The notes beneath the pieces are model-generated. The model saw nothing but the letters and a program-made list of their open reading frames with translations. It was not told the DNA's origin and did not search any database. The position numbers and the translations under genes were made by a program. DNA of 62,807 nt from Phycisphaerales bacterium (GTDB taxonomy: Bacteria; Planctomycetota; Phycisphaerae; Phycisphaerales; SM1A02): the NCBI GenBank assembly GCA_022446795.1, contig JAKVBX010000001.1:15160-77966 (forward strand), read 5' to 3'. This document shows positions 5,438-16,015 of the stretch, one piece after another. How positions within the stretch are numbered: the first letter of the stretch is position 1; every line of letters begins with the position of its first letter.

Positions 5438-5804
5438 CGAGGGCTTTTCCCTGCTTAATCGTCGTTATTGGGGTCCCCAGGGCGGTTGGCAAAAAAACTG
5501 CCCGCCTCGCGCGCCGGACCATGCCCCCAGGTCTTTCTCAGGTGAAGACGATCACAAGACTCCCCCGAGATCATCTTCGACACTCCTCCATATCCTCTCC
5601 ATTCTCTCCATGCACCGAGGACCAGGCGACGCCAAAAGGCATCGCCTGGCTCTCGTTTTGGCCCCTGCCACCCCTTCCTGAAACCCCGGGAAGGCCCCTC
5701 GCGAACATCCTGCCAGGGACTTCCCGACTTGTGGCTTGAGCCCGCCGTGAGGCTTGGACACAATGAGGTCTGGCCGTCCCCTGGAACCACCGGAGAACCC
5801 ACCC
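5438..5804. other. Intergenic stretch without a recognisable gene
   Basis: 367 bp between a terminator and the start of the protease gene. No convincing coding frame, tRNA or strong hairpin is seen. It presumably holds the promoter of the downstream protease gene, but no clear -35/-10 pair could be picked out. Confidence 0.6.
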
Positions 5805-7895
5805 ATGGCTCGCCCCCGATCCCTCGTCGCCGCCGGACTCGGACTGCTCACCCTCCTCAGCACCGCCGCCTCGGCACAGGTCGCGAACCTGATCCGACAA
5901 TCGGTCCCGGTTCGGGTGGAGAGTGGAAGCCTCGTCAACGAGACGGACCAGGTCCAGGTGCTCTTCCAGCAGATCGTCACCGTTGACGATGCCGCCTCCA
6001 TGCAGGTCCGCTTCGGCCGAACCACGCTGCCCGATGGTGCCCGGATCCGCCTGACCTCGCTCACCGACGGCCACGTGCAGCATCACAACCGTGAGACGCT
6101 CCGCCAATGGCAGGGTGGCAGTGCCTGGTTCAACGGAACCATGGTGCTCGTCGAGTTGGTCGCCGATCCCGGCACGGCCCCGACACACCTCACCATCAGT
6201 GAAGCCCGGTACCTGGAACAACTCGGTGACAACCGATCGATCTGCGGCTCAACCGATGACCGCGTGCCCAGCGACGATCCCCGGGCCGGTCGCGTGTTCC
6301 CCATCGGATGCAGCGGCTGGATCATCGATGATCCCAATCGCACCTGCCTGACTGCCGGGCACTGCTCGGACAGCGACGGCGACGTGGAGATCATGCAGTT
6401 CAACGTCCCGCTGAGTGATGCCAATGGCAACTGGCAACAGCCGGGCCCCGAGGACCAGTATGCGGTCGACCCCGAGTCGCTCCAGTTCAACTACTCCACC
6501 ATCGGTGACGACTGGGCCTACTTCGGCTGCTTCCCCAATACCGAGACGGGGCTGACCCCCTACCAGGCCCAGGGCGACTCCTACATCCTGGCGGACGTGG
6601 CACCACCGGTAGACGGGCAGAACATCACCATCATCGGTTACGGCACAACCAGTTCCCCGATCGACCCGACCTGGAACCAGGCCCAGAAGACCCACACCGG
6701 TCCCTACGCCGTCCAGGATGGAACGTCGATCGGCTACGTGGTCGACACGACCGGTGGCAACAGTGGCTCCGCCGTTCTCGATGAGAGCACCGGGCTGGCC
6801 ATCGGCATCCACACCAACGGTGGCTGCAGCAGTGGCAACAACTGGGGCTGTGGCATTCACAATGCCGGCCTCCAGGACGCCCTGGCCAACCCCAAGGGCG
6901 TGTGCATTCCCCAGATCCTCGAGTTCAGCCTGCCGGATGGACGACCCGAGTCGATGCTCCCGGGAATGACCCATGACCTGGACTTCACGGTCTCCGCAGG
7001 CGATGAAGAACCCGTCGCTGGTTCCATCGCGCTGGTCGTCATCATCGATGGCACCGAGGTGGAACCGGCGGTGACGAGCCTGGGCGGTGATCTCTACCGC
7101 GCCACCATCCCGGCCCTCGAGTGCGAACAGGATGTGTCCTTCTACCTGCGGGCGGAAGGCAATGCCGGCGGCATGGCCTACCTTCCCTTCGGTGGCGCCG
7201 ATGATGCCTACCCCATCGCGGTGGGCACGTTGGACGACACGGTCGTGATGTCCGAGGAATTCTCATCGGGCCTGCCGACGGGCTGGTCGGCCTCTGGACT
7301 CTGGCACGCCGTCGATGGCGCCTGCGCCCCGGCGAATGACTGTGGCGAGTCCACCAGCTTCTACTTCGGGCAGGACGGCAGTTGCACCTACGACACCGGC
7401 GGCACCGCCACCGGTTCGCTGTCCACACCGGCCATGTCCCTGGACGGCATCTACGGGGCACTCACCCTGACGTACTGCTCCACGCTCCAGACGGAGGACT
7501 ACAGCGGCTACGACGTCGCCCGGGTCCTCGCCAACGGGGTGGTCGTTGACGAGGTCGACGAATCCAGCAGCTGGCAGGAACGAACGGTGTCGATCTCCGG
7601 CATCACGGGTGACACCCTGACGATCACCTGGGAGTTCAATTCGGTCGACGATCTGTACAACGGGTTCACCGGCTGGCACATCGACAATCCGACGCTCATC
7701 GCCACCGAGGCGAATTGCGACCCGGCGGAACCCTGCCCGGCTGATGCCAGCGGCAATGGTGCCGTCGACACGGATGACATCCTGCTGGTCATCGCCCATT
7801 GGGGCGAGAGCGGTGGCGCCGCGGACATCAACAACGACGGCACCGTGAATACCGCCGACATCCTGCTCGTTCTGAAGTTCTGGGGACCCTGCTAG
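5805..7895 (+). CDS. Secreted trypsin-like serine protease with C-terminal dockerin-like tag
   Basis: 696 residues from ATG 5805 (GGAG about 11 nt upstream); the upstream in-frame ATG would precede the signal peptide (LVAAGLGLLTLLSTAASAQ). The chymotrypsin-fold catalytic triad is visible: H186 in CLTAGHCS, D236 in DDWAYF and S320 in GGNSGSA, so it should be an active endopeptidase. After the protease domain come beta-rich segments (about 380-640) including a part resembling a jelly-roll domain, then two Ca-loop repeats (ASGNGAVDTDDIL; INNDGTVNTADIL) ending WGPC. Extracellular. The stop codon overlaps the stop of the convergent glycosyltransferase gene within the tetranucleotide CTAG. Confidence 0.9.
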   Translation: MARPRSLVAAGLGLLTLLSTAASAQVANLIRQSVPVRVESGSLVNETDQVQVLFQQIVTVDDAASMQVRFGRTTLPDGARIRLTSLTDGHVQHHNRETLRQWQGGSAWFNGTMVLVELVADPGTAPTHLTISEARYLEQLGDNRSICGSTDDRVPSDDPRAGRVFPIGCSGWIIDDPNRTCLTAGHCSDSDGDVEIMQFNVPLSDANGNWQQPGPEDQYAVDPESLQFNYSTIGDDWAYFGCFPNTETGLTPYQAQGDSYILADVAPPVDGQNITIIGYGTTSSPIDPTWNQAQKTHTGPYAVQDGTSIGYVVDTTGGNSGSAVLDESTGLAIGIHTNGGCSSGNNWGCGIHNAGLQDALANPKGVCIPQILEFSLPDGRPESMLPGMTHDLDFTVSAGDEEPVAGSIALVVIIDGTEVEPAVTSLGGDLYRATIPALECEQDVSFYLRAEGNAGGMAYLPFGGADDAYPIAVGTLDDTVVMSEEFSSGLPTGWSASGLWHAVDGACAPANDCGESTSFYFGQDGSCTYDTGGTATGSLSTPAMSLDGIYGALTLTYCSTLQTEDYSGYDVARVLANGVVVDEVDESSSWQERTVSISGITGDTLTITWEFNSVDDLYNGFTGWHIDNPTLIATEANCDPAEPCPADASGNGAVDTDDILLVIAHWGESGGAADINNDGTVNTADILLVLKFWGPC

Positions 7896-9990: not shown

Positions 9991-10854
9991 TCACCCCTCG
10001 GCCATCACGCCCGGATCCAGCGGCATCGAGATCCCCCGGCGAATCTCAGCAAGCCCCGGCTCGTCCGGGCTGATCCGCCCGGTGCGCAGCAGGTAGTCGA
10101 TCACCGCGACGGCCGAGTTGAACTTGAACGCGGCGCTGTCCCGGACGATCGCCGCCACTTCGTCGATCGGCATCAACTGGAATGACTCCACCTCACCGTC
10201 GACCGCCACCGGTTCGAAGTCCGGCGGGACCTCCAGGTCGTAGAGGAACATCGCGTGACGACGCAGGCCCCGCTCGCCGGCCATGACGTAGGTCATCACC
10301 CCGGCCGGCCGGGCCGTCGCCGCCAGGTCCGCCGGCATGCCGGCTTCCTCGCCGCACTCCTTGAGCACGTTCTGCTCCATGGTGAGTCCCAGCGGCCACC
10401 CCCCGGCCACCATGTTGTCGAGTTGGCCCGGGAACGTCGCCTTGGTTCGCGACCGTCGCGCCACCCACATGGCGTCCGCCACCAGCCCGTTGAGATGAAA
10501 GCCCGTGGCGATGACCCCGAAGGCCTCGACCGCCCCGCGATCAATGGCCATGAGCGGTGTCGCCCCCACCTCCGCCACCACGCCATACTGCTCACCCACC
10601 GCACCAGCAACGAAGCCGTCCTCACGCAACTGCGGGAGCAACGCATCAACCGCCTCGGTACGGGACTGGACATCATCCAACGCCGGCACGACCTCCAGGT
10701 CATCACCGACGAGCCGGAAGACATCGGAACAGTCCGCCAGGCGAGTCTTCAGATCAGTTCGAACATGACCCGCGACCACGTCCCCGATCCGCCATCGGCA
10801 GAACGCCGACAGGTCATGTCGGTTGGCCTCTTCAACACGGTCGAGAAAGGTCAT
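9991..10854 (-). CDS. Nudix hydrolase of the DUF4743 / thiamine-pyrophosphokinase-associated type
   Basis: 287 residues. An N-terminal about 110-residue region resembling DUF4743 precedes a Nudix domain with the box GGWPLGLTMEQNV-KECGEEAG, in which the essential E-X2-E-E core (KECGEEAG) is kept while the upstream Glu is replaced by Leu, as is usual in this subgroup. Relatives in fungi and plants remove phosphate from damaged thiamine diphosphate derivatives; that activity is only a family-based inference. Cytoplasmic and monocistronic. The start ATG at 10854 is the first in frame. Its end abuts galE tail to tail with no intergenic base. Confidence 0.82.
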   Translation of the reverse strand: MTFLDRVEEANRHDLSAFCRWRIGDVVAGHVRTDLKTRLADCSDVFRLVGDDLEVVPALDDVQSRTEAVDALLPQLREDGFVAGAVGEQYGVVAEVGATPLMAIDRGAVEAFGVIATGFHLNGLVADAMWVARRSRTKATFPGQLDNMVAGGWPLGLTMEQNVLKECGEEAGMPADLAATARPAGVMTYVMAGERGLRRHAMFLYDLEVPPDFEPVAVDGEVESFQLMPIDEVAAIVRDSAAFKFNSAVAVIDYLLRTGRISPDEPGLAEIRRGISMPLDPGVMAEG

Positions 10855-10913: not shown

Positions 10914-11813
10914 ATGACACCGGTCGGGAGAAACCGGATCGCACTCATCGCCCTGGGCCTCGCCCTGCTGGTGATCGCTGCCGTCGCCCCCATCCGTTCG
11001 CCTGGGACGACACCCCACGCTCGACCCGGACTGGATCGGATGATGGCCTTCCATGACACGTTGTGGTGTGGTTCGCTGCCACGGAGTTCAGAAGCCTGGA
11101 CCACCCTGCACGACCTGGGCGTGCGCACGCTGATCAGCGTCGATGGCGCCATGCCCGATGTCGAGGCGGCCACCAGTCACGGCCTGCGTTACATCCACCT
11201 GCCGATGAGCTACGGCGTCATCACGACCGAGCAGCAGCGACGACTTGTCGCCGCGGCACACGATGCCCTGGCCCAGGGACCGGTGTACGTGCACTGTCAC
11301 CATGGTCACCATCGCTGCGCCGCGGCCGCGGCCGTCATGACCGTCGGCCTGGGACACCTCACCCCGGACGCCGCGATGAAGCAGATGACGATCTGCCGGA
11401 CCTCGCCGTCCTATACCGGGCTGTGGAACACGGTGGCCGACATGACCCCACTCCCCATGACCGAGGTCGAACAGGTCAGTCGCGACTTTCCACAAGCCGT
11501 CGCGCCACGTGGCATGGTCGCCTCCATGACCGAAGCCCAGGATGCACTTGACCAGTTCAAGGCGCAGAAGCCAGCCGACTGGCAACCGGCACAGGCCGCT
11601 CGACTCGCGGAGATCTTCCGCCACCTGCAGGTCGATGCCGCCATCGAGTCCTATCCACCGGCCTTCGCCAACGCCCTGGACGACACCTGGAAGCAGGCCG
11701 ACGCCCTCGAGCAGGAACTGGCCCGGGCCAACCGGACACCGGGACGGGCCACGACCATCCTGGAGCGGCTGGAGACCTCCTGCACCGCCTGCCACAAGGC
11801 CCACCGTCGCTGA
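10914..11813 (+). CDS. Membrane-anchored fusion of a Cys-based phosphatase domain and a cytochrome c'-like domain
   Basis: 299 residues. Residues 8-27 are a signal anchor or uncleaved signal peptide. Residues about 45-190 form a dual-specificity/tyrosine-phosphatase-like domain with the P-loop HCHHGHHR (C128 to R134), fitting the HC-X2-G-X2-R signature; the P-loop is exceptionally His-rich. Residues about 195-299 are predicted helical and end in CTACHKAHRR, a CxxCH haem c motif (C290, C293, H294) near the C-terminus, as in four-helix-bundle cytochromes c'. Both halves would therefore lie outside the cytoplasm. Function is not known: a haem-linked phosphatase, or a phosphatase fold used for another purpose, are both possible. 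It stands alone, divergent from the Nudix gene. Confidence 0.8.
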   Translation: MTPVGRNRIALIALGLALLVIAAVAPIRSPGTTPHARPGLDRMMAFHDTLWCGSLPRSSEAWTTLHDLGVRTLISVDGAMPDVEAATSHGLRYIHLPMSYGVITTEQQRRLVAAAHDALAQGPVYVHCHHGHHRCAAAAAVMTVGLGHLTPDAAMKQMTICRTSPSYTGLWNTVADMTPLPMTEVEQVSRDFPQAVAPRGMVASMTEAQDALDQFKAQKPADWQPAQAARLAEIFRHLQVDAAIESYPPAFANALDDTWKQADALEQELARANRTPGRATTILERLETSCTACHKAHRR

Positions 11814-13828: not shown

Positions 13829-16015
13829 ATGGTCTGTCACCCGCTCACGCGGCTTGTCCGCATCGGCCTGATCCCCATCCTGACCACGACCTTCGGACTG
13901 CCGGCCGCCGCCGCCACGACCGACCTGGTCGCCAACGGGTCATTCGAGAACAGCCTCTCCAACTGGACGACTTCCGGGGATGCCTCGGTCGTCGCCGGTG
14001 GTTGGAACGGTTCGCAATACCTGCAACTGGTCCCCACCGCCGATGTCTCCGCCGAAGCCTGGCAACGCATCGAGGGCCTGGCACCCCGGACACGCTACAC
14101 CGTCGCCGCCCGCGTGCAGACGGATGATCACCTCGCACCGCCGATCGTCGGTCTTCGCAACGGACCACAGATCGCCAAGGCCTCCGGCTGGGTCGCGATC
14201 GACGAGGAAAACCGCTGGGTCGAACGACGCTTCGAGGTCTTTACCGACGACGGACAGACATCGCTCGATGTGTACCTGCAGGCCTGGAAGACCGACATCG
14301 GGGCCACGATACGCGTGGACGATGTCCGCCTCTACCAGGGTCGAATCGATCCGCCGGTGGCTGATCCCGGTGACCCACCCTTCCCCGGGCCGCCCGCATT
14401 CAGCACGGTCCCGTCACCTGGTGAGAACATCGTGATCAACGGTGACCTGTCCGATGAAACCGGCAACCCCTGGAGCCTCGGGATCGAGGCCTCGATCGAG
14501 AACATCGATGGCGCCGCCGCCATCCAGCTCGTCTCGACCGCGGATACCTCGCGGGCCTCACAGGTACCCGGGCTGGCCCTGCCACCGGGCCGATCATGGA
14601 TCCTCACGGCCGAAGCCAAGGTGGACCCCGGCGTGATCTCCAACATCTATCTCACGGGGACCAATGAGTTCTTCGCCAACGTCGCCATCGATGCAACGGA
14701 CTGGACCACGATCGAACTGCCCTTCACGACCAAGGAGGACTGGGTCGGAAACGTGAAGCTGACGCTGGAGAACTGGAAGAACCAGCCCGGCGCCGCCTGG
14801 TTCCGCAACATCCGCTGGGAAGCGACCGGCGAGGAATGGTCACCCACGACCGATGCCGTACCCGTGCCGCAGACCGAGACCCTGGATGAGAATTTCTCCT
14901 CAGGCCTGGACATGGATGACTGGCTGATCTCCACCAAGGCCTGGGGTGGTGACAACGGCGGCGTGAGCCCGCTGAACGTCTCCATCGTCGACGACATCGA
15001 CAACGGCCAGCCCATCAAGGCGCTGCGACTTCAGGCCAATGGCGATCTGTATACCGGTGACACGGTCCACTATGGTCGCAAGACCAGGGTCGGGTCCGCC
15101 ATCGCCACGCGACAGTACTTCGCCTCCGGTCGATACGAGGTGCGGGCCCGGGTCGCCCCCGAGTTGGGCGCGGTGACCGCGTTCTGGCCGTTCCACTACA
15201 TCGATTACCAGAAGGGTGAAGCCGGGTACTGGCATGAGCCCAATCCGCGCCGCAACACCGAGATCGACTGGGAGTTCCCGACGGATCTCATGGGTACCGG
15301 CCAGGACCAGGCCGCCGAGTACGGCCTGGATGCCAGTGACATCGCCTTCACGAACGCCCGCACCAACAGCTGGGGCGGCCAGTTCGGCGGCGAAGGCGGT
15401 GAGCACAAGGGACGTCGCGTCATGCACGATGCCGAGGGCAACATCGTCGACCTGGCCCAGGACAGCCTCGACGGGAAATATCACACGTACACGATCGAGT
15501 GGCACAGCGGATCCGATCTCGGCGACGACGGTGATACCCGTGACGAAATCGGCTGTGTCCGCTGGTACTTCGACGACCTGCTGATCGATGAACTGTGGGA
15601 TGTCGAGTTCGGCCAGGGCAACGTGCCCTTCCGCGCCGCCCGCTTCTGGATCGGCGTCTGGTTCGCCGCGGCCGGCTATGGCGACGAGGTGGGTTGGGGC
15701 GGCAGTCCCGACTTCGACTCGACCGCGCTGTACATCGCTTCCGTCAAGATCGAACCCTTCCTTGAGCCACGCGACACCTGGGTCCGCGAGACCGTTCCGA
15801 ACATCGAGTGGGCCATGCCCGACCAGTACCCCGCCGGACCGGCTACACCCGAGTGCCCGGCCGACCTGGACGGCAACGGCAACGTCGGCGCGACGGACGT
15901 GCTGATCCTGCTGGCTGGCTGGGGGACCGCAGACGGCGATGTCACCGGCGACGGCCTCACCGACGTCCAGGACGTGCTGGCCCTGATCGACGCGTGGGGC
16001 AACTGCCCCACGTGA
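13829..16015 (+). CDS. Secreted GH16 family polysaccharide hydrolase with carbohydrate-binding modules and dockerin-like tag
   Basis: 728 residues; GAGGAG lies 9 nt before the ATG. Order: signal peptide (to about residue 29), two jelly-roll modules of CBM4/9/22 type (about 31-170 and 190-335, each opening with a NGSFE or NGDLS motif), a GH16 catalytic domain (about 350-665) with the motif EIDWEF, whose first Glu is the nucleophile and second the acid/base, and two C-terminal Ca-loop repeats (DLDGNGNVGATDVL; DVTGDGLTDVQDVL). GH16 enzymes cut beta-1,3/1,4-glucans, agar, porphyran or carrageenan; the substrate cannot be fixed here, but an algal polysaccharide is a reasonable guess. No linked SusCD-like or sulfatase genes. 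Confidence 0.9.
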   Translation: MVCHPLTRLVRIGLIPILTTTFGLPAAAATTDLVANGSFENSLSNWTTSGDASVVAGGWNGSQYLQLVPTADVSAEAWQRIEGLAPRTRYTVAARVQTDDHLAPPIVGLRNGPQIAKASGWVAIDEENRWVERRFEVFTDDGQTSLDVYLQAWKTDIGATIRVDDVRLYQGRIDPPVADPGDPPFPGPPAFSTVPSPGENIVINGDLSDETGNPWSLGIEASIENIDGAAAIQLVSTADTSRASQVPGLALPPGRSWILTAEAKVDPGVISNIYLTGTNEFFANVAIDATDWTTIELPFTTKEDWVGNVKLTLENWKNQPGAAWFRNIRWEATGEEWSPTTDAVPVPQTETLDENFSSGLDMDDWLISTKAWGGDNGGVSPLNVSIVDDIDNGQPIKALRLQANGDLYTGDTVHYGRKTRVGSAIATRQYFASGRYEVRARVAPELGAVTAFWPFHYIDYQKGEAGYWHEPNPRRNTEIDWEFPTDLMGTGQDQAAEYGLDASDIAFTNARTNSWGGQFGGEGGEHKGRRVMHDAEGNIVDLAQDSLDGKYHTYTIEWHSGSDLGDDGDTRDEIGCVRWYFDDLLIDELWDVEFGQGNVPFRAARFWIGVWFAAAGYGDEVGWGGSPDFDSTALYIASVKIEPFLEPRDTWVRETVPNIEWAMPDQYPAGPATPECPADLDGNGNVGATDVLILLAGWGTADGDVTGDGLTDVQDVLALIDAWGNCPT

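Follow-up and report, generated by a model that had tools for sequence, protein, structure and literature searches.

The gene described here joins a phosphatase-type domain, with the Cys-X5-Arg loop of that superfamily, to a class II cytochrome c of its own in one polypeptide predicted to be exported, and this pair marks a family spread over the planctomycetes, not a chance match. Each fold is known by itself; their conserved pairing is new. The gene lies in a stretch of 62,807 nucleotides from a Phycisphaerales bacterium, hereafter the window, and its features are collected in Table 1. Functionally, we posit that the product is an exported phosphatase-fold enzyme that would be coupled to how the pool of c-type cytochromes stands in redox terms, a reading to which we give a probability of about 0.42.

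Table 1 Features of the fusion gene in the window (positions in the window) and of three relatives that bear a peroxidase domain (positions in the respective locus).
Feature	Positions	Strand	Basis or remark
Whole coding sequence, phosphatase-fold/class II cytochrome c fusion	10914-11813	+	ATG start, 299 amino acids and stop
N-terminal hydrophobic segment (signal peptide or anchor), residues 4-25	10923-10988	+	Seen by eye in the sequence; residues 4-21 modelled as a helix
PTP/DSP-fold domain, residues 36-189	11019-11480	+	PTP-SAK; structural matches to DUSP23 and TpbA
Asp77	11142-11144	+	Kept in 144 of 146 aligned fused members
Tyr100	11211-11213	+	Invariant (146 of 146); directly precedes the position of TpbA Asp105 (Gly101 in the window protein)
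P-loop HCHHGHHR, residues 127-134	11292-11315	+	Cys128 at the nucleophile position; Arg134
Class II four-helix-bundle cytochrome c domain, residues 192-299	11487-11810	+	Profiles and structural matches
Met205, predicted distal haem ligand	11526-11528	+	146 of 146; alignment with cytochrome b562 residue 7
CTACHKAHR haem c attachment motif, residues 290-298	11781-11807	+	His294 as proximal ligand
Glutathione peroxidase-phosphatase-cytochrome fusion, L039	5122-6828
Glutathione peroxidase-phosphatase-cytochrome fusion, L047	5341-6876
Glutathione peroxidase-phosphatase-cytochrome fusion, L049	5329-6816

The first-pass annotation had described this reading frame as an exported protein with the loop HCHHGHHR and a terminal CxxCH, and this was borne out for a full-length product with a hydrophobic N-terminus, in which no lipobox was seen by eye. 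Of 20,000 shuffled versions of the protein, 0.12% contained HCxxGxxR and 0.035% contained CxxCHxxxR; none contained the two jointly. The window shows no evident partner for the fusion gene, which stands alone between a divergent NUDIX hydrolase-like reading frame upstream (9991-10854, minus strand, named by eye) and genes for tRNA-Pro and tRNA-Tyr on the opposite strand downstream. Elsewhere in the window, two exported proteins with C-terminal dockerin-like repeats (5754-7895 and 13829-16015) appear by eye to be one protease-like and one glycoside hydrolase-like. The genome also encodes a cytochrome c assembly protein and, on another contig, a second phosphatase-like reading frame (L262, 1658-2341) with the P-loop HCAAGAYR. 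No class II-type cytochrome was found near the latter; the 4 kb of sequence around it also holds a reading frame with two CxxCH motifs that is not class II-like. A PF01322 search of this genome returned no match and is uninformative, since it also returned none in 14 controls.

Relatives of the fusion protein were found in 32 of 61 near genomes, the window's own genome counted, including all six of its genus. Across the phylum, a full-length profile matched 247 of 392 genomes at 1e-3; at least 133 of the matches listed, in 132 genomes, span the model from position 19 or earlier to position 267 or later of its 275 (counted by eye), and the remaining listed matches cover mainly the phosphatase part, three of those at contig ends. 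Scanning 84,980 species genomes for the motifs yielded 558 stretches, of which 542 encode a relative, and the best 80 of these 542 carry 72 planctomycete titles, five titles of ‘uncultured bacterium’ and three other names on MAGs. A protein search of 72,556 plasmid records matched two, both from planctomycetes. In two annotated records, the relative from Aquisphaera giovannonii, whose homologue has the accession WP_148599161.1, is labelled no more than ‘dual specificity protein phosphatase’ and the one from Planctomyces sp. SH-PL62 ‘hypothetical protein’. Coincidence, an assembly artefact or a misread frame is a negligible explanation. Many relatives do come from MAG contigs and the start of one of them (L183) looks chimeric; nothing of the kind applies to the window gene, the same architecture is present in one complete chromosome (L064) and on plasmids of named isolates, and the spread of the family refutes the idea. 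A lipobox-like site was found by regular expression in 69 of 147 relatives, and, judged from sequence, the fusion family is predicted to be exported, whether periplasmic or membrane-anchored, and widespread in planctomycetes.

Both motifs are present in 108 of 110 loci drawn from the near genomes and the best motif-scan relatives, two collections that overlap in some identical genomes. This count includes a locus whose haem motif has one undetermined base (present twice) and one with the divergent P-loop TCETGRDR, and the two loci without both motifs (L015 and L077) end at a contig edge and, as their contigs are equally long, are probably one locus. Because the loci were picked by similarity to the fused protein, the number alone is no proof of joint conservation. 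The test proposed at the outset, joint conservation of C128, R134 and C290-H294, was upheld in 28 aligned near-genome relatives, in which C128, R134, C290 and C293 never vary and at least 90% keep H294. A larger alignment took in 146 of 163 fused proteins, with duplicates and rows with unknown residues left out; here C128, G131, R134, C290, C293 and H294 are fixed because the rows were chosen for CxxGxxR and CxxCH, and the unselected positions are the ones to be read. Among these, His95 and Pro97 are kept in all 146 proteins, as are Met205 and Tyr100, with Arg298 kept in 145 and Asp77 nearly as often (Table 1).

Both folds of the polypeptide, a DSP/TpbA-type domain and then a four-helix class II bundle, were recovered by structure prediction, with AlphaFold giving a model that contains no haem at pLDDT 93.1 and pTM 0.83 from an alignment of 53 sequences. 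At the sequence level, Pfam placed PTP-SAK in the window protein above its cut-off (9.2e-8). The phosphatase domain of the model best matches DUSP23 over 143 residues (Z 17.1, rmsd 2.6) and TpbA over 153 residues (Z 16.8, rmsd 2.9), and the 50 PDB entries listed for it, at Z 14.5-17.1, place it in the PTP fold. Its HCX5R loop sits between a strand (124-128) and a helix (134-145), as in the PTP/DSP superfamily. When the family profile was compared with the PDB, the best matches were two structures of TpbA (2m3v and 4r0s), and dual-specificity phosphatases were also retrieved.

The richness of the P-loop in His, which had seemed unusual in the window protein, is a family-wide feature (His129 in 137, His130 in 140 and His133 in 141 of the 146 aligned proteins), and the typical loop of the family reads HCHHGKHR. 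Departures from GxHR among fused members are CETGRDR in L248/L030, GRQR in L241, GTNR in L025 and L028, and GRYR in L026. The Cys that follows the loop in place of the common Ser or Thr had also been singled out, and turned out to be a local quirk, since the residue after the P-loop Arg is Ser in 92, Gly in 47, Ala in five and Cys in two of the 146. The Asp general acid of the PTP/DSP superfamily is lacking from the window protein, which has Gly101 at the position aligned to TpbA Asp105; across the alignment this position holds Asp in 66 proteins, Asn in 48, Ser in 13, Gly in five and other residues in 14. For this reason the predicted phosphatase activity is not assured and chemistry other than that of a phosphatase is possible, while Asp77 or Tyr100 may possibly act as a substitute general acid. 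The same unconserved acid, along with the extra His in the P-loop, would suit a pseudophosphatase whose P-loop merely binds a phosphorylated or metal ligand and whose cytochrome is a carrier or an anchor that reports the binding. We hold this to be decidedly unlikely. Pseudophosphatases often lose the catalytic Cys, whereas CxxGxxR is kept in all 58 reading frames that matched the phosphatase profile in a set of 60 regions from the phylum, and in all 20 of a second set, the profile itself having been built from members that bear the motif.

Turning to the C-terminal domain, Pfam matched the window protein on its own to cytochrome c' weakly (0.041, below cut-off), but of 53 aligned members, 45 match PF01322 with E values no higher than 0.01, the best at 8.4e-8. 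The family profile retrieved cytochromes c' and class II cytochromes c from the PDB at 4e-5 and weaker. Predicted alone (pLDDT 89.5), the domain is a four-helix bundle with a C-terminal CxxCH, as in a class II cytochrome c, although three fused members (L178, L179 and L196) have the CxxCH and yet no cytochrome-profile match at 1e-5. Structurally, it matches the cytochrome b562 derivative 3nmi (Z 12.7, 2.4 A, 97 residues) and chain A of 6r6n, from the Kusta0087/0088 complex (Z 12.8, 1.8 A, 96 residues), Z values of this size being weak by themselves for helical bundles. By the offset of the aligned ranges, Met205 falls on residue 7 and His294 on residue 102 of b562, the two iron ligands of that protein. 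Likewise by aligned ranges, Met205 falls on residue 32 of the 6r6n chain, an entry whose title names a C32M mutation and does not state the chain.

The distal Met is what decides the type of cytochrome. Cytochrome c' proper has no distal Met, and a five-coordinate cytochrome c' would have a helix A without a strong distal ligand; here, in sequence and model, helix A supplies a Met in addition to the CxxCH His, as in c556/cb562-like proteins. Of the cytochrome c'-like haem site that the first-pass annotation proposed, the class II bundle with its CxxCH thus stands and the c' type does not, because Met205 is invariant at the position of b562 Met7, and the domain is better read, on present sequence and model evidence, as c556/cb562-like than as c'. 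A closed, six-coordinate, low-spin His/Met haem is predicted, in which electron transfer is likelier than an open gas-binding site; His/Met cytochromes are electron carriers. The suggestion that the haem senses gas or NO, as part of a cytochrome c' to which the phosphatase is coupled, can draw on the match to PF01322, which is named Cytochrome C', and on the cytochrome c' chains among the PDB profile matches, but the invariance of Met205 led us to reject it as the leading idea, and we consider it highly improbable.

Unfused relatives offer a view of how the partnership may have arisen. The 58 phosphatase matches of the first set, from which two mis-specified regions had been dropped, comprise 45 fused genes, two cut by a contig end, three unfused genes with GxHR (L181, L182 and L183) and eight unfused genes with GxDR; the 20 of the second set comprise 10 fused, nine unfused with GxDR and one unfused with GxHR (L233). 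Directly downstream of L181, L182 and L183, on the same strand, lies a separate gene for a class II-like cytochrome. Its product begins, as judged by eye, like a lipoprotein, ends in a CxxCH region and has Met in the column of Met205. PF01322 scores for these cytochromes are 5.7e-5, 0.0016 and 0.06, respectively, all below cut-off, and L183, as the weakest of them, is a weak case. The reading frame at L183 (1979-2935) has a start that resembles a tRNA-binding domain (PF01588, 0.0024, below cut-off), and the contig may be chimeric. No CxxCH reading frame was found near the eight unfused GxDR genes, nor a separate cytochrome near the nine further GxDR genes or L233. An adjacent cytochrome thus accompanies three of four unfused GxHR genes versus none of 17 unfused GxDR genes (Fisher p 0.003, not corrected for kinship), and His133 of the P-loop tracks the cytochrome. 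Evolutionarily, a tree of 73 of the 171 distinct phosphatase domains (137 columns including the P-loop, rooted on the GxDR rows), limited by few columns and long branches, separates GxDR from all others (SH-aLRT 96) and groups all fused rows and the two contig-cut ones in a fork (SH-aLRT 95) to which L233, L181, L182 and L183 do not belong, branching outside it. The simplest reading of this pattern would be that the two were neighbouring genes first and underwent a single later fusion.

Clustering of the neighbours in 80 loci and 45 larger regions revealed no universal operon partner. The clusters were either restricted to a single lineage or made up of broad enzyme families (kinases, ABC ATPases and sulfatases) without a fixed position. 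A gene caller based on GC3 chose the wrong strand in several loci and served only for by-eye gene lists. A glutathione peroxidase domain is N-terminal in four of 147 distinct fused proteins, all of one genus (L005, L009, L010 and L011, three of them present again as L039, L049 and L047), with PF00255 at 8e-41 and 9e-38 in the two scanned. In one lineage, genes for a CHASE8 hybrid histidine kinase and YfiR-like proteins stand tail to tail with the fused gene (L064/L141, which are one locus, L089 and L092; Pfam was run on L141, 5082-8738, and the same genes are present in L064). YfiN carries a CHASE8-type sensor, and these neighbours recall the TpbA/YfiN/YfiR system.

A third context involves transport. 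A kinase and an NtrC-type regulator lie upstream of the fused gene in L056, L091, L144 and L145, and genes for an ABC importer's binding protein and permease lie downstream in L086, L091, L144 and L145, L056 having a partial match where its contig ends; the importer ATPase was confirmed in L086 and L145, and L086 also holds a multihaem cytochrome. The gene order in L146 is multihaem cytochrome, binding protein, ATPase and fused gene, and in L181 (also L259) it is phosphatase, cytochrome and binding protein as separate genes, with a weak permease similarity further on in L181 (8e-10, no Pfam match). By NCBIfam, the binding protein is nearest to 2-aminoethylphosphonate binders (PhnS-like), far below the cut-off (118 versus 310 bits), and an assignment of the importer as an FbpA-like iron transporter was dropped in favour of this nearer match. 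Relatives of the binding protein are encoded in 56 of 99 genomes; among the places listed, the relative adjoins the phosphatase gene in two (G061 and G112) and lies 5 kb off on the other strand in a third (G134), and the genome of the window carries a single such gene, on a different contig. In Planctomyces sp. SH-PL62, the fused gene of plasmid pPL62-1 has a DUF3365 gene and a cluster for cytochrome c oxidase less than 6 kb away (L253, 6918-10843); these neighbours were not found near other members, save for a partial subunit I match in L159. The peroxidase, CHASE8/YfiR and ABC-importer contexts are each confined to few lineages and are suggestive.

These observations bear on a further explanation, namely that the protein is no phosphatase and is instead a redox enzyme on a phosphatase scaffold, whose Cys/His-rich P-loop would bind an oxyanion or a sulfur compound, with Cys128 forming a persulfide or S-sulfonate, for instance, while the cytochrome removes or supplies electrons. 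The general-acid position is unconserved, whereas Tyr100, Asp77 and the P-loop His are kept; the cytochrome-linked clade has mostly GxHR versus GxDR in its cytochrome-free sisters; a His/Met cytochrome would carry electrons; and a PhnS-like importer adjoins the gene in several loci, a multihaem cytochrome in two. There is also a weak similarity to the Blh/TIGR01244 sulfurtransferase models, but at 15.4 and 17.9 bits it falls far below their cut-offs of 85.85 and 625; moreover, the best PDB profile matches are TpbA and dual-specificity phosphatases, and no substrate is indicated. On balance we regard a redox enzyme of this kind as possible, if doubtful. Its fuller version, in which a new class of periplasmic redox enzymes would bind an oxyanion or sulfur substrate at the Cys/His loop and pass electrons to the class II cytochrome c, first as two genes and then as a fusion, and fed in some lineages by the PhnS-like importer, seems to us unlikely.

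Mechanistically, the reading that we prefer, redox coupling of an exported phosphatase-fold enzyme, would run as follows: an enzyme of the TpbA/DUSP type with the Cys-X5-Arg fold would carry a class II cytochrome c of its own, low-spin and with His/Met ligation, this cytochrome would exchange electrons with the periplasmic c-type pool, its redox state would be coupled to the phosphatase-fold active site, and dephosphorylation, or the binding of a phospho-ligand, would thereby follow the state of respiration. The two folds and their joint conservation were obtained by computation, as were the invariance of Met205 at the ligand position, the single fused clade and the two-gene form; we infer that the haem is attached and six-coordinate and that the P-loop hydrolyses phosphate esters, and the coupling would amount to redox control of the enzyme, not electron transfer to a substrate. 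A search of openly available papers found no phosphatase with a covalently bound, electron-carrying haem. The fusion suggests a phosphatase, or a relative with new chemistry, that is wired to respiration outside the cytoplasm. If the coupling is true, it would provide a direct link between respiration and dephosphorylation outside the cytoplasm, and if the P-loop does other chemistry, it would represent a new use for a very common catalytic loop. The wide distribution of the gene in planctomycetes, named isolates among them, makes the question accessible to direct tests.

Among known systems, TpbA, the periplasmic dual-specificity tyrosine phosphatase of Pseudomonas aeruginosa, is like the family in being exported, in having the same fold, at 18% identity over 153 residues, and in its P-loop as a whole (HCKHGNNR versus HCHHGHHR in the window protein). 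According to one report, it dephosphorylates peptides of the periplasmic part of YfiN/TpbB in vitro, with Asp105 as its proposed general acid (PMC4409338). It differs from the fusion family in having no haem domain, in the end of the P-loop (GNNR versus GxHR) and in its Asp105, which the family does not conserve. Human DUSP23/VHZ is the top structural match of the phosphatase domain, but it is a single-domain enzyme and shares 23% identity. The Blh/TIGR01244 proteins resemble the family in placing a PTP-like domain in a redox fusion, though their partner is, by the model name, a dioxygenase and not a cytochrome, and the scores are far below cut-off. The Kusta0087/Kusta0088 complex of Kuenenia stuttgartiensis is likewise planctomycete and built on class II-type bundles, but its members are free small cytochromes, and its titles suggest a Cys instead of a Met at the position that matches Met205. 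Finally, the class II cytochromes c (c' and c556) and b562 share the four-helix bundle with the family, with the C-terminal CxxCHxxxR, whereas in the planctomycete proteins the bundle is fused behind an enzyme.
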